NCBI GenBank assembly: GCA_008690995.1
Contig: VRMN01000031.1
Location: forward strand, 1 to 50,952
From: Porphyridium purpureum
Lineage: Eukaryota > Rhodophyta > Bangiophyceae > Porphyridiales > Porphyridiaceae
Length of the DNA: 50,952 nucleotides
Reading direction: 5' to 3'
Position numbers and translations under genes: made by a program. This document shows positions 2,527 to 50,105 of this stretch, piece by piece. Under the pieces are notes generated by a model. The model was not told the DNA's origin. It ran no database searches and saw nothing but the letters and a program-made list of their open reading frames with translations. Position 1 is the first letter of the stretch, and each line of letters starts with the position of its first letter.

Positions 2527-3615
2527 CGGCCCGGTCTACACGGGAACAAGGAAAATTGCAAGGCTTGTGTCCGCCATGACCGCCAATGGAGACGTCAACG
2601 TGGCATGTCTCAGAAGGAAGGAAAAGTCGAGCAACGGCTGTGCGGATGATGGACGTGAGCACCAAATGCCAGGAAGTTTGAAAGTTCGCACGGGCTGCTC
2701 ATGCGACTAAAACTGCGGAACCTGTCCACGGAGCGCTCACGGCGCGAGGCACGCAAGCTACCGCGCGGGCGTACGTTGCGCGTGGAAGTATCTTGCCATG
2801 AACTCGTGCTTGAGACGAGCGGTGAGACGGATAACTGCCTTTCCTGATGTGCGAGGCACTGTGCTTCGGGACGACTTTGGCCGACCATTCTGCTCATTGC
2901 TCCTCGTTCTAACATATTTTTGTTGCAATTCACCGTGTGACCGCCACCACTGTCCTTTCCAGCGAAGCGCCAGTTCCATGTACGATCTGAACCTCGCACG
3001 CTCTCTCCGCCTGACCCAGACAGTTCGTGTTTCGGAACTACGAGCAGACGGTTTATTGGTTGCGAAGCACCCGTATCGAATCTCATGCCAGCATCTTGTA
3101 CCAGCAGCACATCGGCGTTCGTGAGTTCCTTTCCGCTCGAGTCGCGAAATCCGGTAACGCCTGCCAACTGCTCTCGGGCTCGAGTGACAGGGAAAGAGAA
3201 AGAGAGAGAGAGAGATAAAGGCGCAGACGAGAGCCAACCGATCTGTGTGTGGTTGGAGACACAGTGTGCGCGCGCTGCTTCTTGTTGTGGAAGCGCGCGC
3301 AGAGCGTGCGTGTGCGTGCTTCGCAGGCGCTTCGCAGCTGCGAGCGCGCTGATGGCGCACGCCGCGCGCGAACCGCGTGGGTCGCGCACTGTACTCGCGC
3401 CGGCGTTCGGTACAGTCGCACCAGCAACGAGTGGCCAACGGACCGGGCGAGCGCGGCAGCGGCCAGCGCACGCGCGGAGTGGTCATCGCGGAAGGCCTGC
3501 TGTCGAGGAACGCCGCAGCATGTGCGGGCAGTATCCACACGCCCCCTCCGCCCGCTCTCCGCTGACCATCTGCTTCGCACGCGCGGCGCACACGCGCGTG
3601 GAGCGTCTTTCGAGT
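2527..3615. other. Intergenic region with the acyl-CoA ligase promoter
   Basis: About 1.1 kb lies between the PRP4 stop and the start chosen for the ligase. It holds a (GA)n microsatellite at about 3183-3219 and a symmetrical pair of motifs, ACTGTAC at 3388-3394 and GTACAGT at 3410-3416, separated by 15 bases of GC-rich sequence. Long minus-strand frames (2610-3389 and 2758-3591) run through it, but they are low-complexity shadows of GC-rich DNA. Confidence 0.45.
3388..3416. promoter_or_regulatory. Inverted ACTGTAC/GTACAGT pair upstream of the ligase
   Basis: ACTGTAC (3388-3394) and GTACAGT (3410-3416) are exact reverse complements, 15 bases apart. CGCGC-type sequence lies next to each copy. 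The pair is about 200 bp upstream of the chosen start. A second inverted pair of the same heptamer lies upstream of the E2 gene. A dimeric transcription-factor site is an inference. Confidence 0.4.
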
Positions 3616-5364
3616 ATGCCCCGGGCGACGTGCGGCTTAAACTCGCTTGGACAACGCGGCCTGCGCACGTCGTGGACAGCGGCAGACGCCTTTTCAGGTC
3701 ACCTGGGTCCGATGTTTGTGGGAGCCCCTGCGCTTCGCCAGAGAGTGGGCAGCATGGTATTGTGCTCGCATTCAGACGGCACCAATAGCGCCGGCCCACT
3801 CATTATCCAGCGAGCCCGCGAGCGCAACTCTCAAAGCGCGGCGATTCGCTCTCGCGGATTGCTGCTGACGTATGGAGAACTGCTGGAGCATGCCACGACC
3901 TTGTGTGGTGTGCTTACAGGCTTGCAGCCGCAGACGGACGACGACCGACCGCGCATCGCCTTCTGCTTACCTTACACGAGTGCCTACGTTATTTCACAGT
4001 GGGCCACATGGTTGGCGGGTGGGATCGCCGTCCCTCTGCACAACGCGCATCCGAGCAAGGAACTCGGATTTATCATTGACGATAGCGACCCGTGCATTGT
4101 GCTCTGCTCGAAAGAGACGCGAGAAACGATCCAGCCCCTTTGCGACGAACGGAATATTACATTCCTTGAAATCAGCTCTGATGACGCGCGTCTCACAGAT
4201 CGTGGGCCATCATCGCAAGGGCCTGTGTCTGGTCGATTGGCTTGGCAAGGTCCTCCAGCTCATGCAGATGACGCCTGTTTGCTGATCTACACCTCTGGAA
4301 CAACCGGAAGGCCCAAGGGTGTCGTGTGGACGCACGCAATGTTAGAGTTCTGGGCAGAGGCCATGACAGCAAAGTGGGCTTGGACGCCGAACGATCGAAT
4401 CACAAACTACTTGCCTTTGCATCACGTCCACGGCATTTTGAACATAACGTTCACGGCGCTGTGGAATGGCGCACTTTTGAGCATGGAGGAGAAGTTCAGC
4501 GTACGCCACGCATGGGCTCAGCTGCAGAGCGAAGAAAATAGCGAGGCCCCTACTCTTTTTATGGCTGTCCCAACAATCTATGCCTACATGATTTCCTTTT
4601 ACGAACAGCAGCCACCTGAGATTCAAGAGACCATGCGCCAAGGTGCGGCGCGCCTGCGGCTGTATGTAAGTGGAAGTGCCGCGCTGCAAGCGACCTACTT
4701 TAATGCGTGGCGGAACATCAGCGGGCAGAATATTTTAGAAAGATATGGAATGTCTGAAGTTGGGATGCCGCTGACGAACCCACATGAGGTCGATTCGCGA
4801 CGGGAGGGCTGGGTGGGACTGCCTATGTCGCCTGACATTGAGTTCAAAGTTGTGAGTGATGACAGCGATACTGCTGCGTCCTCGGAAGGGAAGTCTGAGG
4901 TCGGCGAGCTCAGGCTGCGCGGCCCGGGAATCTTCAAGCGGTATTGGAGGCGAGAAGACGCCACGGTCCGTAGTTTCGACGCGGAAGGCTACTTTTTGAC
5001 AGGAGATGTGGTGGAGCGCGCAGATGATGGCTGGTTCCGAATCCTTGGCAGAAGCAGTGTCGACATTATCAAGTCGGGCGGATTCAAGATTTCTGCGCTT
5101 GAAATTGAGCGTGAGTTGCTCGATCATCCTAGCATCGCACAAGTCGCGGTGGTTGGAATCCCTCACGACAGTCTCGGCGAGAGTATAGCTGCCATGCTTG
5201 TCCTGAGAGATGGTATCTCTGATCTGAGTGTCTCAGAGCTTGGTGCATGGGCACGTGAAAGGCTTGCGGATTACAAGGTGCCGAAGCAGGTTAAAATTGT
5301 TCCTGAAATTCCGAGAAACGCTATGGGCAAGATTGAGAAGAAAAAGGTTATCTCGCAGATGTAA
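3616..5364 (+). CDS. Malonyl-CoA synthetase-like acyl-CoA ligase (ACSF3/AAE13 type)
   Basis: This is an ATP-dependent acyl-CoA synthetase of the ANL superfamily, which activates an acid through an acyl-AMP to its CoA ester. From the ATG at 3616 it has 582 residues, close to human ACSF3 (576). The frame stays open up to 3085, but that extension crosses a GA microsatellite and arginine-rich low complexity. The first residues after 3616 (MPRATCGLNSLGQRGLRTSW) are basic with no acid, as in a mitochondrial targeting peptide. Motifs: P-loop YTSGTTGRPKG at about 225-235, RYGMSEVGMPLTNP at about 375-388, TGDVVERADDGW at about 461, the hinge GRSSVDIIKSGG, and the C-terminal lysine region NAMGKIEKKK at about 565. 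The RYGM-E-GM-L block favours the malonyl/methylmalonyl-CoA synthetase branch. Substrate is inferred, not shown. Confidence 0.82.
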   Translation: MPRATCGLNSLGQRGLRTSWTAADAFSGHLGPMFVGAPALRQRVGSMVLCSHSDGTNSAGPLIIQRARERNSQSAAIRSRGLLLTYGELLEHATTLCGVLTGLQPQTDDDRPRIAFCLPYTSAYVISQWATWLAGGIAVPLHNAHPSKELGFIIDDSDPCIVLCSKETRETIQPLCDERNITFLEISSDDARLTDRGPSSQGPVSGRLAWQGPPAHADDACLLIYTSGTTGRPKGVVWTHAMLEFWAEAMTAKWAWTPNDRITNYLPLHHVHGILNITFTALWNGALLSMEEKFSVRHAWAQLQSEENSEAPTLFMAVPTIYAYMISFYEQQPPEIQETMRQGAARLRLYVSGSAALQATYFNAWRNISGQNILERYGMSEVGMPLTNPHEVDSRREGWVGLPMSPDIEFKVVSDDSDTAASSEGKSEVGELRLRGPGIFKRYWRREDATVRSFDAEGYFLTGDVVERADDGWFRILGRSSVDIIKSGGFKISALEIERELLDHPSIAQVAVVGIPHDSLGESIAAMLVLRDGISDLSVSELGAWARERLADYKVPKQVKIVPEIPRNAMGKIEKKKVISQM

Positions 5365-7440: not shown

Positions 7441-8619
7441 AATTTGTGCTGCGGTCTGCTCTGTACGAACTGGAAACCATGCCGGTAATTCTAGAGTACA
7501 ACTTCACTCATTCTACTCCTCGTTCTTCAATCAAAATTGCCGTCAAGAGCCGATGACGATTCTCGTAAATTTCGACCCAACAGATCAGCATTATGCCCCA
7601 ATTATATTGAGGGTTATCACTGTACCATAGAGGCTAGCGGTCGGGCAGCACATTGTTTATTGGTCCGCCATAGTATTGGGGTTATGGCTTTTGGGTAAGG
7701 AGGGTCCCGAAGAGAGCACTTGCTCGGTGTTTTGTCCGTGTTTGTGTCTTTAAAAAAATTCAGCTTGGGTAAAGTTTCAGGTCAGCCAGAGGCTGTCGTC
7801 TGCAGGTATACCATACTTTATCCTACCGCTGGTGGCTTGGCACAACCCGATAAGAGCGGTAATTAAACGCAAGTCGTGATCAGGGCCAAGCTTGAACATG
7901 GTATTGAGCTCGCATGTACAAGTCAGAGGTGTAACGATTGAAAAGGGTTGGCCGTTAGCCGCAACGAGCAAGTCACAGGTGACTTCCGGCTTCAAGGTGT
8001 ATCACCAGTGAAAGTCACTGTGCATATTCTGCGGCGATCAATGAAGACGCAGTATGGCGTATGAGACGCGCCGTGACCCTCGGTCGTGGACGCTCACTTC
8101 ACTTTCCAGTTGAGTCGACACATGCGATCCAAGTAAAGTGGGCTGCTTTTGGTCATCTACGACTGTCTTCATATCTTCGGTTGTTGACACAGATTTACTT
8201 TTTGCTTGTTCGCATTCATGCCCATACTGTGGTCTTCAGACCTTTATCACTCAAGTAAACTCTTATCTTCTTTTCTTTATTCGCTCGTAGTCGATCGGCA
8301 TGCTCCGATCCTTATCTAGCCGTAGGACGGCCTCGATTTGACCTATGGTTCTATTGAAGGTCATCTTGGTACAGTGACCATTGTACCAAGTCAATTAATA
8401 AATGTATAATTGACATATACCAATGAGCAGGCCTTGAACAAGTGAACGAGGTACAGCACTTGGGCAAACTGTTGATATACGAGCTAGCATTACGGCAACA
8501 AAACTACCAGAGCAAACTTCCAAGAAGAAATACGAGGAGCGCCTTTAGGATTTCACGCGCCAGTCTTTTCTGTCATGAAAGCCTAATGAATGCCGACCGC
8601 GACGATTTCGACACCCCTT
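7441..8619. other. Gene-poor AT-richer stretch
   Basis: No supported coding region. A heptamer ACTGTAC occurs at 7619-7625. A 9-bp perfect inverted repeat occurs at 8365-8390. The open frames (7427-7630, 7777-7995, 8061-8258, 8442-8633) are short and show no family signature. Confidence 0.3.
8365..8390. repeat. Short perfect inverted repeat with GTACAGT in one arm
   Basis: CTTGGTACA (8365-8373) is followed, after eight bases, by its exact reverse complement TGTACCAAG (8382-8390). The left arm and loop contain GTACAGT (8369-8375). It could form a small hairpin or be a palindromic protein site. No T-run follows it, so it is not an obvious terminator. Confidence 0.35.
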
Positions 8620-8866: not shown

Positions 8867-9816
8867 TGTCACGAACCGTGCTGGCCCTTGACACAGCGGC
8901 ACACCCAACACCAAGCCAAGGAGCTCACGCACGCACACAAGCTGGACAATCCACGCAACCAAGAGGAAGCATAAGACACCCACAGTCCCTTGGCCCTGCG
9001 ACAGGCAGGAAATCCGGAACCGACGACGCTCACGCACGCTGCTCACACGCAAACAGCCAAGACCACCGACACACTGGACCAACGCAACCAACCAAGGGCG
9101 CGCTCACGGAAGACACGCGCAACGGGGAAACCAGGCGTCCGCTGCCCAACCGGGATCCCGTTCGGCCACACCTTACATTGATCCGCGACCCGGGGAAGTA
9201 TTGTGGGCAGCCGGGTTTAGCCGGAGGTTACCTTTCGGCTTCAAACGGCAAATCACTCCTTTATCCGCCCCCGCCCACTTACCGCCCCCGGATCCGCTTC
9301 CGAATAAGGACCGTCCTGTGACGCCTTACTCCGGGGCATCCGCGAACCTTCCCCGCTAAATCACCCGCTCGCTCGCTCCCACTCTACCCTCGCTGTACCT
9401 TCGATGCACTTTTAGGTCGCCACGGTCACTCAAGGTCTGGACACACGATCTCGAATATACCAGTTTTTACCTAGATGCCTCCTACCTCCTTCCGTCTCCC
9501 GACCCCCTTTTCCTCCTTGGCTGCCGATCCGCGCGTCCTTCTATACCCATCGTGACCACTTTACCTCCTTAGGTACAAGGCCTTGCTGTCGCTGAGTCTA
9601 GAATTTTCTAGAAGGTTCCAGCCACCTCCTGGCTGTACATCCATTCCACACTGGGGTGGCCATTGCGCGTCTGGTCCCTAAGGGAAGGAGCTTTCAGGCC
9701 TACCACGCGCCCCCATGTACACGTACGGTACAGTGGGTCCGGCGCGACAAGGTATCCGGCCACGGGCTACGGCTATTTTTTATCAAATCCTCAGCATACG
9801 GGCTACTCCCGTGACA
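8867..9816 (-). mobile_element. Solo LTR, family SL (copy 1, about 950 bp)
   Basis: The sequence begins TGTCACGAACCGTG and ends CTACTCCCGTGACA, a TG...CA unit with TGTCACG/CGTGACA terminal inverted repeats. It is the reverse complement of the repeat at 49707-50750 along its length. A TATA-like box read on the minus strand (GGTATAGAAGG, about 9540-9550) matches the position of GGGTATAAAAAG in the other copy. No primer-binding site or coding region is attached on either side, so it is a solo LTR left by an LTR retroelement. Flanking target duplication is imperfect at best (GTAC against GTGC). It has fewer internal tandem units than copy 2. Confidence 0.75.
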
Positions 9817-10029
9817 GTGCTTTACTGCCGGCTTGCCTCACAGCACTTCCACGCGAGAGGAGCAACGAGAAGATGCCACGCTCAACATGCATGTTTCCAA
9901 AATACAGTTCAAGTTTCGGCATATTCTTAACTTTCAAAAGTTTTTGACAAGCTAATTCTGTGCCTGAGGGAAAATTGTTATTTTGCCCCCTCCCCTGGTC
10001 AGGAAATCAGCATATACTTTAGTAGCTAA
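9817..10029. other. Spacer between solo LTR and E1
   Basis: About 210 bp with no gene. It includes a pyrimidine tract (about 9987-9997) which on the minus strand is a purine run and could be the polypurine tract of E1. No E1 LTR follows it directly. Confidence 0.3.
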
Positions 10030-14111: not shown

Positions 14112-14125
14112 CTAGGCTCATAACC
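14112..14125 (-). promoter_or_regulatory. E1 primer-binding site (initiator tRNA half)
   Basis: On the minus strand GGTTATGAGCCTAG directly follows the LTR. It is complementary to the anticodon arm of initiator tRNA-Met (…CTCATAACC…), the half-tRNA primer type known from Drosophila copia and yeast Ty5. The ATG inside it opens a short frame of 16 codons upstream of the gag start at 14034. Confidence 0.65.
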
Positions 14126-17400: not shown

Positions 17401-17686
17401 GCTCATAAGTTATTAACCTGTTGGAACATCTTATGTATCGCGGAGTTTTCGTGACTTGTCACTAACACAGTTGCATGTCCCCTTCGTCGCTCTTGCAACT
17501 AACCTTACCTTCGCAATCTGGGGACTCCGAGCGCCGGCCCTCGCCGAGCTCTTTATAAACGCAATCATACTGCTTTCATTTGTGAGATTGCCAACTGTAC
17601 CTACAGGGCAAAAACTCTAATTTACTGTGAGTTGAAGAAATACAGAAAGTTGGAGCCGGAGCATTCCTCATGGCATTACTACTGTA
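14471..17686 (-). mobile_element. E2: Ty1/copia retroelement of the E3 family, broken
   Basis: This is a minus-strand fossil. Its 5' LTR remnant is at 17419-17686, then gag (about 16282-17406, with zinc knuckle CGYCHKVGHETKRC), then protease, integrase and the beginning of reverse transcriptase (about 14471-16269). Protein sequence is nearly identical to E3, so it is a recent member of the same family. Its left part ends where E1 has inserted, and the remainder is not found beyond E1. The outer part of its LTR is cut by the Tc1 element at 17687. It has few internal breaks. Confidence 0.88.
17419..17686 (-). repeat. Partial 5' LTR of E2
   Basis: It matches the E3 LTR in reverse complement (for example GCCAACTGTACCTACAGG against GGAGGTACAGTTGGC). 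It carries the TATA box (TTTATAAAGAGC on the minus strand, about 17552). The outermost 40 or so bases are missing because the Tc1 element begins there. Confidence 0.75.
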
Positions 17687-19235
17687 CAGTTCTGGCCAAA
17701 TTAATTGTCCCACAGGATAATGTGAAACTCTTTGTGAATAAGCCGGCTTCTCGACCAGGACGTCGTGCTCTTTGATTGCTCGAAACGAATCCGCGGCACG
17801 GGAAAGCGGTAAGGGCTTAGAAAGGCATCGTAGAACAGTGAGACACCTGTGAGAAGGGCCGCAGAAAAGAAATACAATGAAACAGGTTGATGAGGACAAA
17901 CACGCTTATGAGAAGAGATTTAATTGTAGTAACGAAACTAGTACTTGGTTTGACGGCCACCGGCGTCGATGCAAGCTTGCAGGCGACGGGGCATGCTCTC
18001 GAAAAGTGCCTCAACATACTTTGGCGCTTCCGTTCGCCAGCAGTCATAGATAACTGGAAGCATGTCATCGAGGCGCATAAACTGGCGTCCTTGCCAATGC
18101 ACACGGCGAGAAACGATCGCCCACAGATTCTCAACTGGATTCAAGTCCGGCGACCGCGCTGGCCAATCAAGTAGTGCGATTCCGACCGTGTCAAACAGCT
18201 CGCGCGTGCTCAGCGCTGCATGTCCGGGCGCATTATCTTGCTGAAATATGAATGGACAATCCGGCTGATCAAGGCGCCAAGGCAGTTCCAGTGCCCAGGG
18301 CATCATGACGTTCAGCATAACCTGGCGACATCGTTCGGCATTCAGCGAACTTTGAGCACGATGCAACGTACTCAGTCCGTGCCACGACATGGCACCCCAA
18401 AACATCGCTGATCCTCCGCCACTGTGGCGACGCATGGTTGGCGCGGGCTAAGAGCCTCGCATGCGCTGATAAGTCTTGTTGTACCCGTGTGGCCCGTCCA
18501 GCCGAAAGATCTTTTCATCCGAGAAGATGACATTCTTCCAAAACGATGGCGGCTTGTGGACGTATTCTCGAGCAAATGCAAGCCGCTTGACTCGGTTCGT
18601 TTCCGAAATGAAGAACTTTCGCCTCTGTGCGATAATACGAATCTCTGGTGATCTCTGCAGGATACGACGAACAGTTCTCGCACTGCACGCAAGCTGCAGC
18701 TCCGTCACTGCCTGTGCAGACGTCAACCTATCCGTAATGACGTGCCGAATCAGGCGACGCTCCAATTTCGGCGATATTGTCCGCGCCGGTCCGTGCTTCT
18801 TGAAAACCCTTTTCTTGCCTCGATTCTTCAGAAATCTCTCCACAGTCTTGTGCGATGGTCGGGTCTTGTCTGGTCGCGGACGAAGACGTGCTGCAATGGC
18901 CCGCGGCGTCAGACAGAGCCGGTGCAGAGCGTCAATCTGCCCTTTCTCGAAGTCGGAGAGCCGTGGTGCCATGTTTCCGATGCTTGCGGTTGCTGGACTT
19001 GGTCGCGATCGTATGCCCGAGTGCAGTAGATGCGTTAGTCTTCTTTCACAAGTCTTGAACCCCTTCATGGCCTCATGGGGTCCCGCAAAAGCGCGCGCCT
19101 ACCTCTGACCTGAGGAACAAAAATATGTTTTAAAAGGTATAAACATTGATTTTATATGAAAACGCTCGTTTTTATTATAAAACTGGAGTTCAGACCTTGA
19201 AATTGCACCTGGGACAACCATCTTGGCCAGGAGTG
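17687..19235 (-). mobile_element. Tc1/mariner DNA transposon with TIRs
   Basis: The ends are imperfect inverted repeats: CAGTTCTGGCCAAATTAATT from 17687, and CACTCCTGGCCAAGATGGTT read inward from 19235; about 22 of the first 30 bases agree. Both ends are flanked by TA (17685-17686 and 19236-19237), the family's target duplication. The element is about 1.55 kb and holds one transposase on the minus strand. Its left flank is the E2 LTR, but the right flank is E4-type retroelement sequence rather than the rest of that LTR, so the element sits at a rearrangement breakpoint. Confidence 0.82.
17938..18972 (-). pseudogene. Tc1-type DD34E transposase, one internal stop
   Basis: From the ATG at 18972 (MAPRLSDFEKGQ) the frame encodes about 344 residues, the usual length for Tc1 transposases. 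It has an N-terminal paired helix-turn-helix region (RLSDFEKGQIDALHRL…SHKTVERFLKNRG), then FSDEKIFRLDGPHGYN (first D), GGGSAMFWGAMSWHG, FQQDNAPGHAAL (second D) and SPDLNPVENLW (E), with 34 residues between the second D and the E. All three catalytic acids are present. A single in-frame TAG near 18445, just before MRRHSGGGS, interrupts it; the frame is otherwise continuous. This suggests recent loss of function. It is a plain DNA transposon, carried on the opposite strand to the E4-type fragment at its right. Confidence 0.85.
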
Positions 19236-24145: not shown

Positions 24146-24481
24146 GTTTATTGGTTCTTAGGTGTACCGTGGGCGGCTAGATGAAAGCTTCAGCAAAAAC
24201 TCAGTAGAACTTATGCCTTTTACTTTCGAACACCAACTAGCTCTTACTCTCTACATCATGGCGCAGCACTCTTCGTGCTGCAGCCGCGGATGGGTACTTA
24301 TACTGGTACGGCGACGCCGGCAAGGCGGCGACGACGGCGGCGGATTCTCGGACAGCTTACATCAGGCATCGTGAGCGGTGGAAACAGCCTCAAGCGAAGT
24401 GTACTACGAGTACAGCGCGATTCTCCCACGATTACTACTGTACCAGGGGAGGGAATCTAGGGAAACCCTAGATTCATAACA
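24146..24481 (-). repeat. LTR of E4
   Basis: On the minus strand it begins TGTTATGAATCTAGGG. Its first 45 or so bases match the E3 LTR start closely (TGTTATGAATCCAGGG). It has ACTGTAC at 24437-24443 and a weak TATA (CAGTATAAGTA, about 24296-24306). It ends at the primer-binding site GGGTTATGAGCCCAG (24131-24145). Confidence 0.72.
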
Positions 24482-25221: not shown

Positions 25222-25528
25222 TGTTATGAATCCAGGGTTTCGGTAGATTCCCTCCCCAGGTAAAGTAGTAATACCATGGGGAATGTTTCAGCTCCAACTT
25301 TCTGTATTTCTCCAACTTATAGTAAATTAGGGTTTTTGCCCTGGAGGTACAGTTGGCAATCTCACTAGTGAAAGCACTACGATTGCCTATATAAAGAGCT
25401 TAGCGATGGCCGAGGCTCGGAGTCCCCGGATGACGAAGGTAAGGTTAGTTGCAAGGGCGACGAAGGGGACACGCAACTGCGTTAGTGACAAGTCACAAAG
25501 ACTCCCCGATACATCAGACCTTTTAATA
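25222..25528 (+). repeat. 5' LTR of E3
   Basis: It begins TGTTATGAATCCAGGG and ends CCTTTTAATA. A TATA box (TATATAAA) lies at about 25388-25395 and GTACAGT at 25347-25353, about 40 bp upstream of it. The duplicated 5-bp target site precedes it. Confidence 0.93.
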
Positions 25529-25542
25529 GGTTATGAGCCTAG
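25529..25542 (+). promoter_or_regulatory. E3 primer-binding site overlapping the gag-pol start codon
   Basis: GGTTATGAGCCTAG directly follows the LTR. It is complementary to the anticodon stem-loop of initiator tRNA-Met, as in Drosophila copia. The ATG at 25533-25535 inside it is the first codon of the gag-pol frame, so the tRNA anticodon CAU would pair with the start codon during priming. A second in-frame ATG follows five codons later (25548) and could also be used. Confidence 0.7.
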
Positions 25543-28500
25543 ACGCGATGGCGTTTACGTTTGATGCGTCGAAGCTGTCCGCGCTTGCGAACGGCGTGGA
25601 AAAGTTCAATGGCGAGAATTACGACATTTGGGCACGCCGCACGAAGCTCGCGTTGCGTGTGGTGAAGCTGTGGCCCGTCGTTGCGGGGATGGTCGTTCGC
25701 CCATCGTCGTCGTCGCGTGCAACTGCCGGGATGACGGCAGAAGAGTGGGACGATGCGGACCTGGCGGGACAGTTCTTTCTGTCCGGGGTCTTGGAGAACA
25801 GGTACGACCGTCTCGTCCGCGATAAGTCGTCGGCGGACGGTTGGTCCGCGGTGGCGAATTATGCGCACGATCAACTGTCGGCGCAGAAGTTCGCGTTTCG
25901 CATGGCGCTGGAGCGCATTGTCCAGAACAAGAACGAGGCAATGGCCGAGTACTTGGATCGCGGAATCGGTCTGTGGGACAAGCTTGTCTCGATCGGTGAG
26001 CAAGTTCCCGAGGACCATGTCGTGCGTTATCTGGTGATCGGGCTCCGCAAAGAGTTTCAGGGGTCGAAGGACTACCTGCTGCATTCGGCGCCCACGGTCT
26101 CCGCAGCTCGGCTGCAACTGCTCCAGCTGGAGGCCGGAAAAGCGCTCGAGCGCACGTTGGCAGATGAGCCCCCGCCCATCGCAATGGCGGTGTCCCAGCG
26201 TCCGCAGCAACAGCAGCGTGATCGCTCAGCGGGTGTCGTGAAGACGGCACTCGTCAAGGAGAACCTGAAGTGTGGCTACTGCCACAAGGTTGGGCACGAG
26301 ACGAAGCGTTGCTTTAAGCGCAAGAATGACTTGCGCGACAAGGCTGCTGGTGCGAGTGGCGCAGCAGACCCGGAGGCAGTGAAACGCGGCATCGGAAAGC
26401 CGAATGCGCGGGTGAATGTGGTTCAGGTAAAAACCAAGGTGACGAAACCACCGGCTCCGGCGGCAAAGGCAGCCATTGAGCCAGGTTGGATGTCGTGGGA
26501 GGCCTACGCGAATAGCGTTGCGGGAAGGGGCGTGGTGCCAAAAGGCCCTTCTCTGGATATCCGCATGATTAGCCCCCCAGCGACCCCTGCACCAATCAAT
26601 AAAGCCACCACTTCCATCTATGCCATCTGTGTCTCTGTTGTGCCCCACAAGCACAAGTCGCACAAATGGATGTTCGATTCTGGATCGGACAGACATATCA
26701 CTTGGGATAGGTCTATTCTAATGAATGAAAGACCTTCTGATGAATCACTTGTTACTGTTGCCAACGGGGAACATGTTGAAGTTTCATTGATGGGTGATGT
26801 CATGCTCAAAACAATTATTCAAGACAAGTTTAATGACTTGCGTCTTGAAAATGTTTTGTTGATCGAAAGCACACCCATAAATCTCCTTTCGACAAAGGTC
26901 GCAGCGAGAAAGGGCTGTGTCTTCAAACACGATGATAGTTCATCTGTTTTGCATTTTGGGTCAGATGGGCCCGTCCTAGCGGTTGGGGATGGTGATTTAA
27001 TGATCAAACTATCCGCCGCTAGAATAAATGCAATCACAGCTTCAAATAAGTTTGAGCTATTTCACCGTCGACTTGGTCATCCTGGACTTGCTGGTCTGAA
27101 AAATACGCAAAATTGTGTACAGGGAATTCCCGCGGACTTAAAAGTTCCGGATGAATACCATTGTGTGATTTGCCAAAAGGCAAAGGGAACACGAACTCCC
27201 TTTAAGAAGCGGAAATTGAATTCCATTTCGGCGGTTCCGGGAGAAGTCCTTCATACTGATGTATGCGGACCACTCACTCCTTCGAGTTTTGACGACCATC
27301 GATATTTTCTAGTTGTCGTCGACGAATGCTCAAGTTTGAGTGTCGTCCACTTGCTCGAGCGAAAAAGTGAAGCGGGTGAAATGTTACTGCGCACACTTAA
27401 ATATCTCGAAACGACTCTTGGTGCAAAGGCAAAAAGAGTTCGGTCCGACAAAGGTGGCGAATTCGCAAGCCTTTATGTGCAAAGGCATCTCCAAGACTCT
27501 GGAATTACTTGGGAAAATACCTCTGCTTACACGCCAGAACTTAATGGTATGGCTGAACGCATGAATCGGACATTACTCGAAAAGGTTCGAAGCTTATTGT
27601 TTGATAGTAATCTACCTTTGGAAAATTGGAGTAATGCTTTGTTGACTGCGAATTATTTGCGAAATCGCATTTCAAATAATCGCGGGAAAACGCCGATAGA
27701 AATTGCATTCAGGCAAAGGCCAGATCTCAGCAATCTCAGAATCTACGGATCGAGAGCGTTTGTTCATATTCCTAAGCAATTGCGAGGAAAACTAGAAACA
27801 AGATCTGCAATTGGATGCTTGGTCGGTTATGGAAATGTCCATTCCGTTTATCGCATTCTTCTATCGGATGGCACGGTCGTTGAAAGTCGAAATGTCACTT
27901 TCGATGAGTCTGTCGTTGGAATAGATGTTCATGAACATGAAATCCACGATTCGGAATATTTTTCCAACTTCGATAAAATTGTCGAAGAGTTGTTTCCAAA
28001 AGATTTCTCGAAGTCGTTTGATGAAAAGTCTCAAATCGCGTCAAAAAATTTTGAAACAGATTCCACTCGACAAATGGATGATCGCAGTCAGGAATATTCT
28101 ATTTCAAATGAAATCGGAGAAACGTTTCTGGAAAAAGTTCAGAATAATTCGAAAGATTTAGGGTTCCAAAAAGCTCCAAATGGAAACTTTGGGAATACTG
28201 AGGATGACGAAAGTCAAGACAGTGGATATGTCGCAAATCAATTCGTTGGAATAATTTCCACCGTTTCTGAACCTCGGTCAGTCGAAGAAGCACTAAAGGG
28301 TGACTTCTCTGAGCAATGGCTGGAAGCTCTGAATAGAGAATTGGAATCTCTCACTGGCAACTGCACGTGGGAGCTCGTCGATCGTCCACAGGACCGAATT
28401 CCTGTCAGATGCAAATGGGTTTTTAAGATCAAATATAATGTCAACGGACAAATTGATCGGTTCAAGTGTCGACTTGTCGCAAAAGGTTTCACTCAGAAAC

Positions 28501-29810
28501 CTGGTTTGGACTACGACGAAGTGTTCAGCCCTGTTGTGCGACACAACACTATTCGAACGGTCCTGGCAGTAGCAGCTGCAAGAAAGTTGAAAATTCGACT
28601 TTTCGATGTGGTGACTGCGTTTCTCAATGGAGAACTTCATGAAGAAATTTTCATGGAACAGCCTCCTGGATTCGTACATGAAGGAGGAAAAGTCCTGAAA
28701 CTGCGTAAAGCAATCTATGGATTGAAGCAGGCATCTCGAGCTTGGAATCAAGTTCTTGTGCAAGCACTTAAAGAAATCAATTTTTCCGAAAGTACGGCAG
28801 ATCCTTGTCTGTTTTCTAAGGGTCCAAATGGTCCGTATATCATGATTTACGTCGATGACTTGGTCTTCATAGGTGAAGACGAAGTTACTTCAAATGAAGT
28901 GCTTCTGCATTTGCAAGGCAAGTTTGAAGTCAGGGATCTTGGGCAAGTGGTCAAGCAAAAATTTGCCGGCTACACTCTTGATTATGATCAAAGGAATGGC
29001 ATTATCAGACTTAATCAAAGCTTGTATGTCCAAACCATCCTGGAAAGGTTCGGAATGGAATCGGCGAATCCAAGGAAGCTTCCCATGGAAAAGGATACGA
29101 AGTGGTATACTGCTACTGCAGAACCATGCAAGATGCCTTACATGGAACTCGTGGGAGCACTAATGTATTTGTGCACTTGCACGCGTCCGGATATTTCCTT
29201 CGCCGTGGGAGTGCTTGCACGATCAATGGCAAATGCCAATGAATCCCATTGGAATGCGGCAAAGGGAGTGCTGCGATATCTTAAAGGAACCATAAATTAT
29301 GGTCTCCAATTTAGCTCAAATGGCAACTCCGACCTAATTGGTTACGTTGATTCAGACTATGCTAGTGATCTTCGAACGCGAAGGTCAACCACCGGATATG
29401 CTTTCACGATCAATGGATCAGTTGTCTCCTGGAAATCCAGGCTACAACCAACTGTGGCGCTGTCCACAACCGAAGCAGAGTACATGGCTCTCTCGGATGC
29501 ATGTAAAGAAGCCCAGTGGTTTCAATATCTCATGGAATTCCTAGGATTCAAGTCGAAATCGATTCCAATGTTTTGTGACAATGATGCTGCACTGAAACTG
29601 AGTGAGAACCCGATTGTGCACGAAAGGTCGAAGCACATTGACGTGAGAAAGCACTATGCTCGCGAATGTCAGCAACGGGGAATAGTCAAGGCTATTTACA
29701 TTCGCACATCAGATCAGGCAGCAGATTTCCTAACCAAAGTGGTTCCTCGAGAAATGTTTTTGAAATGCAAAACCTTATTGGGTGTTGCTTGTCTTGAAAA
29801 TTCGAGATAG
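25533..29810 (+). CDS. E3 gag-pol polyprotein
   Basis: 1,425 residues in one frame. Domains by approximate residue: gag of the copia UBN2 type 1-240; CCHC zinc knuckle CGYCHKVGHETKRC near 248-261; aspartic protease with DSGSDRH near 384; gag-pre-integrase HRRLGHPG near 510; integrase core with HTDVCGP (near 573), RSDKGGEFA and ELNGMAERMNR; reverse transcriptase from CKWVFKIKY to the YVDDLVFIG active site near 1105; RNase H with YVDSDYASD and LSTTEAEYMAL near 1310, ending CLENSR. A single gag-pol frame is normal for Ty1/copia. It differs from E2 by few residues. Confidence 0.95.
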   Translation: MSLDAMAFTFDASKLSALANGVEKFNGENYDIWARRTKLALRVVKLWPVVAGMVVRPSSSSRATAGMTAEEWDDADLAGQFFLSGVLENRYDRLVRDKSSADGWSAVANYAHDQLSAQKFAFRMALERIVQNKNEAMAEYLDRGIGLWDKLVSIGEQVPEDHVVRYLVIGLRKEFQGSKDYLLHSAPTVSAARLQLLQLEAGKALERTLADEPPPIAMAVSQRPQQQQRDRSAGVVKTALVKENLKCGYCHKVGHETKRCFKRKNDLRDKAAGASGAADPEAVKRGIGKPNARVNVVQVKTKVTKPPAPAAKAAIEPGWMSWEAYANSVAGRGVVPKGPSLDIRMISPPATPAPINKATTSIYAICVSVVPHKHKSHKWMFDSGSDRHITWDRSILMNERPSDESLVTVANGEHVEVSLMGDVMLKTIIQDKFNDLRLENVLLIESTPINLLSTKVAARKGCVFKHDDSSSVLHFGSDGPVLAVGDGDLMIKLSAARINAITASNKFELFHRRLGHPGLAGLKNTQNCVQGIPADLKVPDEYHCVICQKAKGTRTPFKKRKLNSISAVPGEVLHTDVCGPLTPSSFDDHRYFLVVVDECSSLSVVHLLERKSEAGEMLLRTLKYLETTLGAKAKRVRSDKGGEFASLYVQRHLQDSGITWENTSAYTPELNGMAERMNRTLLEKVRSLLFDSNLPLENWSNALLTANYLRNRISNNRGKTPIEIAFRQRPDLSNLRIYGSRAFVHIPKQLRGKLETRSAIGCLVGYGNVHSVYRILLSDGTVVESRNVTFDESVVGIDVHEHEIHDSEYFSNFDKIVEELFPKDFSKSFDEKSQIASKNFETDSTRQMDDRSQEYSISNEIGETFLEKVQNNSKDLGFQKAPNGNFGNTEDDESQDSGYVANQFVGIISTVSEPRSVEEALKGDFSEQWLEALNRELESLTGNCTWELVDRPQDRIPVRCKWVFKIKYNVNGQIDRFKCRLVAKGFTQKPGLDYDEVFSPVVRHNTIRTVLAVAAARKLKIRLFDVVTAFLNGELHEEIFMEQPPGFVHEGGKVLKLRKAIYGLKQASRAWNQVLVQALKEINFSESTADPCLFSKGPNGPYIMIYVDDLVFIGEDEVTSNEVLLHLQGKFEVRDLGQVVKQKFAGYTLDYDQRNGIIRLNQSLYVQTILERFGMESANPRKLPMEKDTKWYTATAEPCKMPYMELVGALMYLCTCTRPDISFAVGVLARSMANANESHWNAAKGVLRYLKGTINYGLQFSSNGNSDLIGYVDSDYASDLRTRRSTTGYAFTINGSVVSWKSRLQPTVALSTTEAEYMALSDACKEAQWFQYLMEFLGFKSKSIPMFCDNDAALKLSENPIVHERSKHIDVRKHYARECQQRGIVKAIYIRTSDQAADFLTKVVPREMFLKCKTLLGVACLENSR

Positions 29811-29849
29811 AGGTGGAAGGCATGACGAAAAGTTGTCGCTGCGTGGGAG

Positions 29850-30156
29850 TGTTATGAATCCAGGGTTTCGGTAGATTCCCTCCCCAGGTAAAGTAGTAAT
29901 ACCATGGGGAATGTTTCAGCTCCAACTTTCTGTATTTCTCCAACTTATAGTAAATTAGGGTTTTTGCCCTGGAGGTACAGTTGGCAATCTCACTAGTGAA
30001 AGCACTACGATTGCCTATATAAAGAGCTTAGCGATGGCCGAGGCTCGGAGTCCCCGGATGACGAAGGTAAGGTTAGTTGCAAGGGCGACGAAGGGGACAC
30101 GCAACTGCGTTAGTGACAAGTCACAAAGACTCCCCGATACATCAGACCTTTTAATA
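29850..30156 (+). repeat. 3' LTR of E3
   Basis: 307 bp, identical by eye to the 5' LTR. It is preceded by a purine-rich tract ending GCGTGGGAG and followed by the ATTTC target duplication. GTACAGT is at 29975-29981. Confidence 0.93.
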
Positions 30157-33740: not shown

Positions 33741-36700
33741 TATCTCAGCGGGGCTTCAACAGTTGAGAAGGTTTTTCATCCTCCAATGATCTTGGCAGAA
33801 CTGGTCGTTCCATGGCCACAGAGCGGAGCGCCTCTTTGTGCGGCAGACTTGCAGGTTTAAAGTGAGAGTTCGGCCGCAAAGGACTGCTGAAGGGCCTGAA
33901 AGCTAGCCTGCCTTTTACTCCAGGCTCAGCTGTATCAACGTGTGCTAATACATGGTTTATTGAGTAATGAGGCTTTGATGCTTTTTCGATACAATTGCCA
34001 CAAGTGCTGTGGCCTCGCTCTGCCATTTTCGGGGCCGTCTCGTCACACGGCATCCGGGCGTCACCTCTGCATCTGCGCAGTGTTCAGTAGATATTGCAAA
34101 TGCTTCATTGGCACCACCTTTCCCGACCAGCAGCTCGCTGGCGTCCTCCGTCAACCGAGCTCCAGTGGCCTATAGATAATCTGTATCCTAGAGCAAATCC
34201 ATGCGCGCTTCATACAGCACCAACTCAAGGTCCTTCTGGACCACACCAAATGTCATGGCCACCACGCGAAGTGAACCACGCTTTGGCGCACTTGTTCCAC
34301 CAGCGAAACGGTTTACGCAGTTGCTTCTCGCTGGCTTCAGGCGAGAAGTAGCCACCATGCGATTTCATAAGCAGGTTTGTCATGTTCCACGTATAACCAC
34401 GGCCTCGATGATGCACCCCTCTGCAGTCGCCGGGACCTGCTAAAACCTGCTCGACACGCTACCGCGCGTGCCTTGCCCTACGCTAGGGTAGAGCATTTAA
34501 ATGAGCTCGGTGCGCTGATCAATTAGTCGGCTGTGCCACATCAGCACCACGAGCCGAATTATTTTGCTTACTATTGTGCTCACCCACTGTACCCGATGCT
34601 ATCCGTGTTGGGATGGTTGAACGGTCTAAGCGTCATCATGACTCTGTGAACTACTACCTCGACAGCCGAAGAAGTTGACCACGGGAGTGAGCTAGCGTAG
34701 ATATGCAGCTCCGCCTCTTCATCGCCGCTGTCGCGCTTGGCTTCATCGACGGCGACGCAGACGACCTTGGGGACCCGGCAGTCACCCGTTATGAGGCTTC
34801 ATCGCTTGCACGGGTCGCATTGCCAGCCACCGTTGCTTTCGTCGGCGCTTCTGTGTTACCTACTGAAATTTGCCTCCTTCGCACTGGCCTTTCCGAGCCT
34901 GTTTCTTGTGCTTTTGTTTATATAACCCTCGATAGCTGCTGGACCTCAGCAGCGCTCCGACCTGGACTGTTCGTTAGCCCATTCCATGGACCCAAGCTCC
35001 ATGAGATCTGGGCTGCTATGGATCGTTGACTAGGTGCAGCGAACCTCCTGGCGTCCGTCCCGGTTAACATCGAATCTACGTCTGTGATCTTTTCCACAGC
35101 CTTCGAGAAAGCGCACTTCTCGAAGCACCAACACCGAGAACTGCATCACGGTCGCGCATTTTCAGTCGCCTGTCGTCACCAAAAATCGACCCACTTGCAG
35201 ACTCTGCTGTCCGAATGCTGATGTCTGCCCGACGAACGCAGACTTCTAAATAGCGTCGATGCTTCATGCGCAAGTGCTGTGAATCACTCTCCGCTCGCTT
35301 CACGCATGCTTGGATAAGACAGGCAATTAAGCAACTTTTATTCTCGGTGACCAAATACGCAAGGTCCATTCATTGCAACCGTCATTACTGCGCAATCCAA
35401 TTTCTAAATGCGACGATTTTGTCTGTGGCACTTGTGTGCAATGCTGGCCGCAGCTCCGGTAGCACACGGGGAGGACAGGCGGTCGTTCATTGTCAACGCT
35501 TCAGCAAACGATGATGAAAACCAGCAAAACCAAACTTTCTCCTATGCACACCGGTCTGTACGTTTGCACTTCCAGTACAACTGGGTTGTGTAGTCCAACG
35601 CCTTCTTTCTAATGTGGCATGCGTCATATGGGACCTCGAACGACCAGCCCTTTTCTTCAATGCGTCTCCTTCCAGAGTTCCTTCGACCGCGTTACTACGC
35701 ACCTCAGGAGGGGTCCGCATCGTGCTTGACAGCGCATCTGGGAGCACACTTGACGCATTCTTGTCGAGTTCGCCCATTGTACACATGGGCTTTAAACCAG
35801 CATGCTTGTGCTCGACACCACCTTGGCCCTTCAAAACAGGCGTCATCCTGCAAATGAAATCTTTACATGGAGCGTCTGGTGTCCCGCGGGTACTCCTGCA
35901 CCATTCAACCACATCGCAGGAATTATTTGTGTATAAGCGAGTCTTTATTAACCAACCTGTCGGCAAGTAAACCAGGATCACTTTTTATCCAACGGATCTA
36001 GACCGCGATAAACGCTGCAGAGGACAGCCGCTGTTAGATAGACTTTTGCTCCCGCCAAAGTCGCTCTCCAGGCTGCTGTGCACCTGTCTTACAGGCATAT
36101 GCACATCCTTTTGTTGTACCACACGTTTGCGCCAACACTTGTTGTTCAGAAATCTCTCACCAACGGAAGTGTCCACGCCACTCAAGTTTAGAAACAACAC
36201 ACATACTTTTGCTCTCAAGGTACAAAAGACGAAAGCAGGCTCCCTCTATCCTTGCTCGCTGCCGGGCTAGTTCCCTCCTACACCGCCGCGCTCCGCTTCT
36301 CGCAATATATCTAACTCTTTCGCTGGACTCACCGCACACGACGCCGGTCGCTCCCGTACAGCACAGCGATGAACGATCATCACCTCGGCGAAATTTACGG
36401 TGCGCCCCGTACCACATAACCAAGACTTCTGCCCCAACAGCACCTTATCGCAATACTAGCCGCAAGGACAGTGTAAAGACTGACTTCGATGACGAAAAAC
36501 AACACTTCACCTGTAGGGACTTAGGATCTAAACCTCTTTCCTTCGAAGCGTTGCTAGAAGCCGACCATTCCTCGCCCTGGTGACGGCTTTTGCCACGCTA
36601 TCTAAATGAGCAGCCCGTTCGCAGCTCCGAGAGCGCGCGGGTACCTAGAGTGGCCGCTCCGACTCCACATTCCAACGAGTCACGGCTAGCGCCGGCGGAA

Positions 36701-38411: not shown

Positions 38412-39580
38412 TCTTTCTTGTTTCAGGTAAATGCTCGGAACCTTCGCTGTTTTGAAGCGTTTGTCACTTCCTTCTCGCGCCAAACAGTCGACCTTCACCA
38501 ACTGTGGACAAATTTTACCTTTTTTGTTGGATGTGGTTGAAGCCTGTGTGTAGCCGCGACGTAGCTGCTTGCCGAATTGAACCGCGTTTACTGTGTCTGT
38601 ATTATCTTTTTTTTGTATCTGGACGAGCTTGCGGCCCCGCGCGACGCTCCGTATATAGACCTTTTCCGAGGCCGCTGCAGGAATGGAACACAAGCTGCGG
38701 GCGGTGCGTTTGCACCCCACCGGTCTTCGCGAGACTGGTGAAAGCATGACTTCGGATTCTCGCGTCGAAATGTCCCATGCGTATTATCCTTGAAACCCTG
38801 TTTCATTGTTGTGAATCAAGGGTTACGTGAGAGATGAGAAACTATATCCCAGCTGTGCTGGGTTTGCACGGTTGAACTTAATCGACTGGTGCAAGGAACT
38901 AAATCTTAGAACAATACAATATCTTGTTTTGTACTCTTTATCATCTCTGAGACTTTTGTGAACTACTCAAGCTAGCTCGTCGTCGACAAGCTTGTCGTTT
39001 TTATACCCTGTTCGCGGATGAGACCCGCGCATACGTGGCTCCGGTGCATCATATGCAAAGGCCCCCGATTTGCTGGACACGCCCATGCCGTCCGTGACAC
39101 GAGCAAGGACCCTTGCGTGTTGCTAACTTTAGCTCTGCTATAGCCAAGGGGTCAGCGACTTTGACTGTACCCTGGAAGCTTCTTTCATTCATAACGGTTC
39201 ACCGGCGCCACCGGCGCCTTGCACAGACAAAAGAGTGTCCGGACCGATAACCCGGCCACCAGGGTTCCAAACCCGGTCCAGCGGCTAATCGGCTAAAACT
39301 GAAACATCCCCTGCCCGTCGTAACGACTCAATGGTCCGTTTTTCGGACGGTCAACGCTTTCGGTGCAAAATTTGAAGCCAGCCCGTTTCGTCCAGAAAAG
39401 AACGAGTCAAAAGCAACGACATTGCGACAGCAGATATGCTCAGGAACCAAAAGACTGTCACATAATTGGGAGTGAGAGATGAGACGAGGAATTTGAGATT
39501 CCCTCTCGCTTTACTATGCTTGCGATGTTTCGCGCACTGCTCCCCGAATTCACCACCGATTAGTGGCGCACCCGCGCGCG
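38412..39580. other. Gene-poor stretch
   Basis: No convincing frame. The first part may include the terminal repeat of the Tc1-like relic. ACTGTAC lies at 39164-39170, about 420 bp upstream of the small open frame at 39581. Confidence 0.3.
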
Positions 39581-42399: not shown

Positions 42400-43314
42400 C
42401 TCTGCAGTTCTCTGAACGGTGGCCACCCGCCGGCCGCACAGCGTGTCTGGACGCGTCGCCCACGGCTAGTTCACAGTGCACGTCGAAGCTGCGGCCGCAC
42501 CCGTGCACCCAAGCAGCCAGCCCTTTGTGTCGCCGAACCGACTCGCTCTCCCTCTCCACCCGTCCGTTTGCGCGTACCTGGTGGCGCAGCTTTTTGCCGT
42601 TGGCCTGCGCTGCCGCGCGCCGTGCGGGAGGCGGGTGCCGAGGCGGGCGCCGAGGCGGATATGGCGCTGGCTGGCTGCGTGGCGCGAGCTGCGCGTCGGC
42701 GCGGAAGAAGGCAGAGGCGCCCAAGAGCAGAACGGCGCGCCGCCCAGGCGTATGCGCGCGGGCCCGGAGACGTGCGCGGCGGCGAGTAAGCCGCATGTGC
42801 GCGCGTGCGTTCGCCTCGGCGCGGCGCAGGCGCGGCGGCCGGTGGCGGCGGTACAGTCGCGCCGGCATATCGGCGCGTGTACAGTGCTCATCCGCGCGTG
42901 TACAGTGCTCATGCGCGCGTCCGTGCCAAAACGGGCCGGTTTTGTTATGCGCCGCGGCAGGTTGCGCGAGTCGCGCACGGCGCGCGCGGGTGGCTGTGTC
43001 CCCACACACTCGCGCCACCGCTGAATTCGCGCTTCCGCTGCCATGCGTGGCGGCACTGCCCACGAGCCGTGCCGGCTTGCTCCTGCACCATGGTTGCTGC
43101 CGGGCTCAGCTGTTGAAGTGACTCGGCACATGCCACCGCGCGTTTCAGGGCGTCGCTCGCGTTCATCCCTCGCGTGTGGCCAACGCCGACGTCCGGCTTT
43201 AGGGCTTACGCAGTGCGCCGAGTCTGGCCGATGGCGGCGCACGTGGTCGCGCGGCTTACGCGGCAGGTTGCCTTCAAGGCAGGCCGGGCTACGCGCAGTG
43301 GACCGGTAACGAGG
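42400..43314. other. GC-rich intergenic region with tandem GTACAGT repeats
   Basis: About 0.9 kb of very GC-rich DNA between the start of the WNR-domain gene and the 3' end of the helicase, both on the minus strand. It must contain the WNR gene promoter. Long frames cross it on both strands (for example 42267-43121) but consist of R, A, C and G-rich shadow sequence. The recognisable content is the tandem repeat at 42851-42921. Confidence 0.45.
42851..42921. promoter_or_regulatory. Three GTACAGT copies, two in a 21-bp tandem repeat
   Basis: GTACAGT occurs at 42851-42857, 42879-42885 and 42900-42906. The last two are in a near-exact 21-bp tandem unit (GCGCGTGTACAGTGCTCAT plus two bases; 42874-42894 and 42895-42915). 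The first is followed by CGCGCCGGC, the same GC sequence that flanks the motif upstream of the ligase. The 21-bp period is two helical turns, so the sites face the same side of the DNA. Confidence 0.5.
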
Positions 43315-45804: not shown

Positions 45805-45815
45805 TTTGAGCTTCT

Positions 45816-46733: not shown

Positions 46734-46776
46734 TACGGCAGGTTCAGCCGTGCCGCTTCACTTGGGATTCGCGCGC

Positions 46777-48944: not shown

Positions 48945-49706
48945 CTGCGGGACTTCTGCGCGGGTGCTCTTCCGCTTGCTGCGCACTGCCTCTGCGCATG
49001 GCGGCACGAACCCTGTCCAGCACCGCGCCAGCCGACTCCTCCTCGCCTGCTCCACGCCGCGCCCCCGCCTGCGCGACACGCGCACCAGCACGAACGCTGA
49101 CTCGGCGATCGATCGCAGCAAGAACTGTACTTTGGGTGTACAGTTATCGCGCTTGCGCCGAGTCGTGCCGGGCGGCGCGAGCGCGTTTTCGAGTCTGGAA
49201 GCCAAGCCACACTGCCGGGTTGCCGCGCAACGAAGGCGCGCGATTGGAGTGAAGGGCCGTCGCTGACCTGAAGCCGGGTCGTTAGTGCACGTGCGCAGAC
49301 GCGAAGTCAATGAGCAACGGGTGGTTTTCCTTCGAGCGTGCAAGGTGATAGAAATGGAAGCCGCTTGCCAGTAGTTCTGCAGATCGAGTGCAGAGGCACG
49401 GGAAATTGAGTTTGAGAAGAAGAGCGTCTACCATAGAGGGGCCACAAGAAGGTCTATCTTCGAGGAATGACTCTGACCAGAGCAAAGGGAGCAGATCCGT
49501 GGTACATCGCGCTGACCTTACTTCCGGGGACTGTACTCTATCGAACCCTGGCCGACGACATTACAAGAAAACAATCATAAGGCAGCGTAGCCCTTCATGT
49601 ACCAGATCTGTTGCCAGTGAGGAAGCAAGGTTCAGCCGCCTACATCGAGTACATCCAAAAGCACTTGCTCATGCGGCTAATGGTAAGCAATCGGGCATCC
49701 AAAGTG
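48945..49706. other. Region upstream of the E2 gene
   Basis: About 760 bp with short GC-rich frames on both strands and no recognised gene. It should hold the missing first exon and the promoter of the E2 gene. It contains the inverted pair at 49124-49144 and an ACTGTAC at 49530-49536. Confidence 0.4.
49124..49144. promoter_or_regulatory. Inverted ACTGTAC/GTACAGT pair upstream of the E2 gene
   Basis: ACTGTAC (49124-49130) and GTACAGT (49138-49144) form an exact palindrome around seven bases (TTTGGGT). The pair is 180 bp upstream of the first E2 exon found. Shortly after it comes ATCGCGC, similar to the CGCGC that follows the motif at other genes. Confidence 0.45.
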
Positions 49707-50105
49707 TGTCACGGGAGTAGCCCGTGTGTTAAGGAAATGATTAAAAATAGCCATAGTCCGTGGCCGGATACCTGGTCGCGCCGGACCCACTGTACTGTAG
49801 GTGTACAAGGGGGCGCGTGGTAGGCCTGAAGGCCCCTTCCCTTAGGGACCAGACGCGCGCTGACCACCCAGTATGGAATGGGTGTACAGCCAGGAGGTGG
49901 CTGGAACCTTCTGGAAGGTTCTAGACTCAGCGACAGCAAGGCACTGCACCTCGGGGGTACAGTGGTCGCGATGGGTATAAAAAGACGCGCGGGTCGGCAA
50001 CCAAGGGGGGGAGAGGGGGGCCGGGAGACAGAAGGAGTAAGGTGGATCTAAGTAAAAACAGGTGTATTCAAGGAAGCGTGTTCGGGCCTTGGGTACCTGT
50101 TGAGG

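Follow-up and report, generated by a model that had tools for sequence, protein, structure and literature searches.

The sites of general or pioneer promoter factors, such as NF-Y (CCAAT), the yeast factors Reb1, Rap1, and Abf1, and plant Site II, are short words that occur near many unrelated promoters, which are often poor in TATA boxes; these sites tolerate either orientation and are often clustered. Host-factor sites are also known from the promoters of retroelements, as in the heat-shock elements of ONSEN and in mammalian long terminal repeats (LTRs). Here we describe a heptamer with similar properties, GTACAGT, from the red alga Porphyridium purpureum. It was noticed in a stretch of 50,952 nucleotides (contig VRMN01000031.1 of assembly GCA_008690995.1), which we will call the window. 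It is probable, in our judgement, that a sequence-specific nuclear protein binds GTACAGT and acts through it at the promoters of many P. purpureum genes that are otherwise unrelated. It differs from the sites listed above in that its gap preferences depend on orientation, and it is not known to match the site of any general factor (no motif database was searched).

The window contains 21 copies of GTACAGT or its complement ACTGTAC, as compared to a mean of 2.74 and a maximum of 7 in 100 dinucleotide shuffles. The first-pass annotation of this DNA listed about 20 copies: all 20 coordinates are correct, and the site at 17684 was overlooked. It expected about six copies by chance, which is too many, so the true excess is larger. 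It was right that some LTR copies are not independent (25347, 29975, and 17594 are homologous, as are 9728 and 49789), and about 18 sites are left once homologous LTR copies are removed. GTACAGT is the top heptamer in the window by dinucleotide z score (21 versus 2.6 expected). It also ranks first of 8,178 heptamers (61 versus 10.0 expected) in a 200 kb sample that is separate from the window and was taken from contig C1 at even intervals, as 20 stretches of 10 kb (L005-L024). If 6-mers are taken into account, the excess in the window is small (21 versus 15.7), because the overlapping sub-words of GTACAGT are enriched as well. For genome-wide counts, we searched 22,164,627 bases in 46 contigs (the largest has 5,717,864 bases) and found 6,320 copies on both strands. 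A phycobilisome linker encoded in these contigs matches LRC2 (chain b8) of PDB 6kgx, a structure from P. purpureum, at all 490 of 490 residues. The published assembly of P. purpureum CCMP1328 has 52 contigs and a total of 22.1 Mbp (largest contig, 5.7 Mbp); 9,898 proteins were predicted from it, and LTR elements make up 8% (PMC6811547). The G+C content of the sample and the window together is 54.9%, and the published value is 55.5% (PMC10866757).

Genes in the sample were predicted from codon bias on open frames that start with ATG, which gave 63% coding and 37% noncoding sequence. Most of the sites (53 of 61) are in the noncoding part (p = 1e-15), and this is still so after dropping five sites in two retroelements (48 of 56). 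The density of sites is 0.716 per kb in noncoding sequence and 0.063 per kb in predicted coding sequence. As a replicate, we used 30 kb of contig C43 with eight gene starts. There, 9 of 12 sites are noncoding (p = 0.005), versus 0 of 5 for our control, the letters of GTACAGT read backwards (the “reversed word”). Thus, the rate in coding sequence is lower in both data sets, and the equal rate that the first-pass annotation had named as contrary to its proposal did not occur. Its statement that no site is in coding sequence holds for the window, with the caveat that the sites at 3388 and 3410 are within an open frame, but confinement to noncoding DNA is too strong for the genome, as 8 of the 61 sample sites are coding. 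These 8 compare to 9.3 expected from 200 synonymous shuffles (excluding a retroelement frame in L009), so we rejected selection against GTACAGT in coding sequence. GTACAGT is concentrated upstream of genes, and its coding rate is at background rather than depleted.

Upstream of the 72 predicted starts in the sample, the sites within 400 bp, binned in 50-bp steps outward from the start, number 1, 3, 15, 5, 5, 3, 1, and 1. The interval from 100 to 150 bp contains 15 of the 34 upstream sites (corrected p = 4e-5, assuming independent sites). Counting genes instead of sites, 1 of 71 has a site at 0-50 bp, 2 of 70 at 50-100 bp, 9 of 70 at 100-150 bp, and 4 of 70 at 150-200 bp. Of 70 genes, 18 have a site within 300 bp and 3 have the reversed word. 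The enrichment upstream of starts that had been proposed as a test is therefore present with predicted starts in the sample. In C43, all seven upstream sites are 50-350 bp before starts. The sites also depend on the orientation of the flanking genes: across 56 spacers of 20-1,500 bp, there are 1.63 sites per kb in tandem spacers (17 sites), 0.96 in divergent spacers (12 sites), and 0.19 in convergent spacers, which have 1 of the 30 sites despite accounting for 19% of spacer bases (p = 0.017). Eight sites are within 50 bp after a stop codon, but seven of these are at most 210 bp upstream of the start of a neighboring gene, so we rejected a signal at 3' ends. We did not find a peak of TATA boxes in the host promoters; within 400 bp of the 72 starts, there are 5 copies of TATAWA on the sense strand and 6 on the opposite one.

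The genes behind the sites are functionally mixed and include chorismate synthase, pyruvate kinase, a proteasome subunit, TsaD, ERG2, EMP70, and FUN14, among others. We scanned 20 genes, of which 17 belong to a family, and found no common function, so we rejected a single regulon. (Seventeen of the 20 are genes from the sample with a site within 350 bp; there are 19 such genes, and a Copia frame in L009 and L012:3-293 were omitted. The other three are from C43, including L036:2498-4177, which has no site within 350 bp.) The mixture of functions favors a general factor over a single regulon.

GTACAGT sites tend to occur in close pairs, at 23 to 32 times the number expected from their density in every orientation. 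Genome-wide, and including retroelement copies, there are 211 convergent pairs (GTACAGT, then ACTGTAC) with gaps of 1-20 bp (9 expected; 3 for the reversed word), 221 divergent pairs with gaps of 1-20 bp (9 expected; 1 for the reversed word), and 890 tandem pairs with gaps of 0-30 bp (448 plus 442; 28 expected; 6 and 4 for the reversed word). At gaps of 21-50 bp, we found 96 convergent and 183 divergent pairs (13.5 of each expected; 3 and 2 for the reversed word). The gaps within pairs are not random. Divergent pairs with gaps of 0-3 bp are absent from the genome and only four have a gap of 4 bp; gaps of 9-13 bp account for 26 pairs, and the 11 gaps of 5-8 and 14-20 bp account for the remaining 191. 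In convergent pairs, a gap of 0 occurs once, 1 bp six times, and 2 bp seventeen times, and 27 of the 50 matches listed have gaps of 3-6 bp. Among the 100 tandem matches listed, none have gaps of 0-1 bp and 17 have a gap of 2 bp. The special 21-bp spacing that had been suggested was not borne out: 6 of these 100 pairs are 21 bp apart, start to start, versus 17 at 9 bp.

Two sites commonly come no nearer than about 5 bp when their 5' ends face each other, 2-3 bp when their 3' ends do, and 2 bp when they are head to tail. If the footprint is asymmetric and extends about 2.5 bp past the 5' side of the core and about 1 bp past the 3' side, this would explain the 5'-5' and 3'-3' limits. The head-to-tail distance predicted from such a footprint is about 3.5 bp, and the tandem peak at 2 bp fits this less well; satellite-like arrays contribute to that peak. 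The weakly conserved outer bases of the motif coincide with the places where this footprint would overhang. RNA-level or compositional explanations do not predict such gap rules. The gap preferences of divergent pairs are as for proteins that are side by side on DNA, and a rough test of helical phasing at 10.5 bp, on the matches listed, gave R = 0.34 for divergent pairs (0 of 2,000 jittered sets were as high), 0.18 for convergent pairs (5.7%), and 0.25 for tandem pairs (0.25%). The test is rough in that the near and far lists span unequal shares of the genome. Identical repeats were removed by hand (6 of 50 near-divergent, 6 of 50 far-divergent, and 7 of 50 far-convergent pairs; one repeated near-divergent pair was kept), while the 100 tandem pairs were not deduplicated and include 9-bp satellite-like arrays. 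We retain phasing for divergent pairs alone, as the trough in convergent pairs at gaps of 8-12 bp (3 of 50 listed) is gone genome-wide (43 of 211). Together, the pair counts and the gap preferences support a protein that binds double-stranded DNA.

Two satellite-like 9-bp tandem arrays, of GTACAGTGT, are at C1:2124919-2124952 and C1:2328201-2328225. Also, identical copies of a 54-bp cluster with multiple sites are found on four or more contigs, some in one orientation and some in the other (C1:31902, C8:862597, C13:215295, and C14:973890).

Aligning the 53 noncoding sites from the sample gives a fuller form of roughly G[A/G]GGTACAGT[G/T], in which the outer bases are weak. Position -3 is G in 27 sites; position -2 is A in 29 or G in 17; and position -1 is G in 26, with C avoided (3 sites). 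The base after the core is G in 31 sites or T in 14. The next base is G in 22 (0.16 bits), and the remaining outer positions carry no more information than this. The flanks are alike over only about three bases on the 5' side and two on the 3' side. The densest variant with a single mismatch, GTACAGC, occurs at 0.38 per kb in noncoding sequence, versus 0.72 for GTACAGT. Separately, GTACAGC is over-represented in the coding sequence of L005-L024 (35 versus 19.1; none of 200 synonymous shuffles reach 35).

Four families of LTR retroelements carry the site. Family 1 is a Copia element with identical 307-bp LTRs, at 25222 and 29850 in the window, each with one site that is 34 bp before TATATAAA; L009 contains a 99% identical element. 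Family 2 is Gypsy-type, with 1,060-bp LTRs (99.4% identical; L013 and L028), an RVT_1 domain in L028, and a divergent pair with a gap of 7 bp; the window contains one LTR and an old copy. Family 3, also Gypsy-type, has identical 320-bp LTRs in L029 and L030, a divergent pair with a gap of 6 bp, and a chromodomain match below the curated cut-off. Family 4 has identical 280-bp LTRs in L032 and L033, a divergent pair with a gap of 23 bp, and an RVT_1 domain in L034. In all four families, as judged by eye, the sites precede a TATA-like box on the strand that encodes pol (TATTTAA in family 3). The first-pass annotation put the LTR sites 13-40 bp upstream of TATA, in agreement with what we measured (12 bp for the site at 49957 and 34 bp for that at 25347). 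We compared the LTR-bearing loci L009, L028, L029, and L032 by BLASTN in all six pairings, and none of them align over 40 bases or more; there is a single internal match of 94 bases between L034 and L031. In contrast to ONSEN and the mammalian LTRs, which likewise have host-factor sites near TATA, the word here is the dominant one in its genome, it is found in LTRs without detectable similarity, and two families have it at a genome-favored gap (6 or 7 bp). We also searched for LTR pairs without regard to the motif, in the window and 23 stretches. Of the three pairs found, two are family 1, with the motif. The third is another Gypsy-type family (L013:1683-1979 and 6849-7145), which lacks the motif even if one mismatch is allowed. 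Thus, the use of the motif by retroelements was correctly anticipated in that several LTR families carry it, though one of the two families from the motif-blind search does not.

Family 3 also contains a convergent pair, GTACAGT-N6-ACTGTAC, inside the element (L029:596-615), about 170 bp past the LTR. In the LTRs of two Gypsy-type families, TATAAAA is preceded by repeated TTC/GAA blocks, such as TTCTAGAAGCTTCTAGAGGTTCCAGAACCTTC (L013:1683-1979 and 6849-7145; window 49900-49926 and 9601-9622). These resemble heat-shock elements, and the heptamer TCTAGAA is likewise enriched in the noncoding sequence of the sample (15 versus 3).

Several observations weigh against a host promoter site. The exact word is absent within 300 bp of 52 of 70 genes; the 100-150 bp peak does not recur in C43 (0 of 7 upstream sites, eight genes); once its 6-mers are allowed for, the sample has 61 copies versus 46.2 expected; and the reversed word, with 3,088 copies genome-wide, is only two-fold rarer. 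The gene starts are predictions, taken mechanically from open reading frames, and clustered sites are not independent, which makes the p values optimistic. Of the three types of pairs, divergent ones alone are clearly phased to the helix, and convergent pairs have no genome-wide trough at 8-12 bp. It was through their motif pairs that families 2-4 came to notice, so they give no measure of how frequent the motif is in retroelements, and the motif is absent from one of the two families that were found blind to it. Even so, the upstream enrichment, the pair rules, and the sites in LTRs support the view of the first-pass annotation that this is a host transcription-factor site that retroelements also use; the factor itself is inferred.

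An architectural or replication protein, with a role as an insulator, in nucleosome positioning, or at origins, could instead bind at promoters without activating them. This would account for promoter-proximal sites next to unrelated genes, and plasmids are reported to replicate as nuclear episomes in P. purpureum (PMC10866757), so its origin rules may be unusual. But sites before the TATA-like boxes of LTRs and the rarity of sites in convergent spacers fit transcription better, and we consider such a protein unlikely. Far less probable is a signal in the 5' leaders of RNAs that affects stability, translation, or processing. The sites are mostly 50-300 bp before the start codon, which might be within the leader, and on the sense strand ACTGTAC is somewhat more common than GTACAGT (21 versus 13 within 400 bp of starts). 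However, both orientations are found, convergent, divergent, and tandem pairs all have gap preferences, and in the LTRs we examined the site precedes the TATA-like box and so is probably not transcribed. We give almost no credence to the idea that transposable elements scattered the word and that it does nothing at host promoters: several LTR families bear it and identical copies recur, but 5 of the 53 noncoding sample sites are in the two recognized elements, the flanks of the rest are dissimilar beyond the core, and the sites peak upstream of starts.

If GTACAGT is the site of a promoter-binding protein, then one protein may occupy each site of roughly 10 bp as a unit, and neighboring bound copies may stabilize each other at the permitted gaps. 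The bound protein would keep the promoter open or recruit the transcription machinery, mostly at promoters with no obvious TATA box, and LTR retroelements would use the same protein through the site upstream of their TATA-like box. The predicted nuclear protein would prefer GAGGTACAGTG over a scrambled probe. A bolder proposal, which we view as possible but doubtful, is that a red-algal general regulatory factor binds GTACAGT and largely replaces the TATA box. This one protein, in stacked arrays with fixed gap rules, would open a large share of the promoters of a compact and intron-poor genome, and unrelated retroelement families would have assembled the same array in their LTRs independently of each other.

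Which kind of protein might bind GTACAGT? SBP/SQUAMOSA sites and copper-response elements have a GTAC core, and SBP proteins favor CGTACAA. Apicomplexan AP2-G sites have a GTAC core at promoters, the site of Giardia Myb2 is C[T/A]ACAG, and a three-finger C2H2 protein reads about 9-10 bp. GTACAGT shares the GTAC core with the first three and TACAG with the Myb2 site, which is a likeness of sequence alone. The flanks do not match those of SBP sites: C precedes GTAC in only 3 of the 53 sites, and GTACAA is not enriched in noncoding sequence (0.28 per kb, versus 0.56 per kb in coding sequence of the sample). A search of the genome for the SBP domain gave no match, and the same search was silent in all 14 control genomes too. 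A published census of transcription factors lists no AP2/ERF proteins for P. purpureum, which sets the motif apart from AP2-G sites, and no SBP proteins; C2H2 proteins are 30.2% of the factors, and there are 23 two-repeat MYB proteins (PMC4827209). By elimination and from this census, C2H2 zinc fingers are the likeliest class, at somewhat less than an even chance, and MYB-type proteins are the next candidate, at lower odds still. We would guess that the size of a C2H2 footprint matches the size of the motif.

Among the papers listed in our literature searches, where each list was part of a longer one and subscription papers are mostly missing, we found no earlier report of this motif and no genome-wide promoter motif of any red alga, and the novelty of the motif is not established. 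The 10 papers listed, of 2,878 for the word itself, have titles on other subjects, and two microalgal papers that mention Porphyridium (PMC8305958 and PMC8125830) contain its letters once each. It is putatively a promoter-proximal factor site, of a known kind, in a lineage for which we found no mapped one in that literature. If this is correct, the motif gives concrete access to the promoter code of a mesophilic red alga and can mark promoters when genes are annotated, and it could serve as a probe for pulling down the protein and as a target for mutation in existing reporter vectors. Because the motif is found in LTRs without detectable similarity, the capture of a host factor by retroelements becomes testable in an early-branching plastid lineage.

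Table 1. GTACAGT sites and LTR retroelements in the window.
Feature	Position	Strand	Context
Divergent pair ACTGTAC-N15-GTACAGT	3388..3416	.	About 200-230 bp before in-frame ATG 3616 of AMP-binding (acyl-CoA ligase type) gene
Single GTACAGT	7619..7625	-	No recognized gene at site
Single GTACAGT	8369..8375	+	No recognized gene at site
GTACAGT in old Gypsy-type LTR copy (about 8867-9820; 85-87% identity to L013/L028)	9728..9734	+	
GTACAGT in Copia LTR segment 17414-17687	17594..17600	-	Homologous to 25347
Palindrome ACTGTACAGT, two overlapping matches (17681, 17684)	17681..17690	.	Edge of aligned Copia LTR segment
GTACAGT in Copia LTR fragment 24431-24489	24437..24443	-	
Copia element (RVT_2, integrase, gag)	25222..30156	+	Identical 307-bp LTRs
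GTACAGT in Copia left LTR	25347..25353	+	TATATAAA 34 bp downstream
GTACAGT in right LTR of Copia element 25222..30156	29975..29981	+	Equivalent of left-LTR site 25347
Single GTACAGT	34586..34592	-	No recognized gene at site
Single GTACAGT	39164..39170	-	No recognized gene at site
Three tandem GTACAGT, 28 and 21 bp start to start	42851..42906	+	Upstream of minus-strand frame 41284-42426
Divergent pair ACTGTAC-N7-GTACAGT (favored gap)	49124..49144	.	Upstream of minus-strand ubiquitin-conjugating (E2) gene
Single GTACAGT	49530..49536	-	No recognized gene at site
Gypsy-type LTR	49707..50751	+	97.7% identity to 1,060-bp L013 LTR; internal region would start at 50752
GTACAGT in Gypsy-type LTR 49707..50751	49789..49795	-	Homologous to 9728
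GTACAGT in Gypsy-type LTR 49707..50751	49957..49963	+	TATAAAAA 12 bp downstream

The inverted pairs that the first-pass annotation reported before the ligase and E2 genes are both divergent pairs, and its tandem copies before a gene are the three sites upstream of 41284-42426, a frame with a BRK-domain match slightly below the curated cut-off. The open frame around the sites at 3388 and 3410 spans 3085-5364 and was called mechanically. Of the six 90-bp steps over 3085-3624, five have a negative codon bias, and the AMP-binding domain starts near 3811; the in-frame ATG is compatible with a later start. In L013 and L028, the counterpart of the site at 49957 is half of a divergent pair, ACTGTAC-N7-GTACAGT, while in the window the left half is ACTGCAC.

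The sites had also been described as often next to CGCGC. This is so in the window (8 of 21 sites, versus 14.7% of random positions) but not in the sample (10 of 53 sites, versus 19.0% of random noncoding positions), so we rejected the link in the sample.

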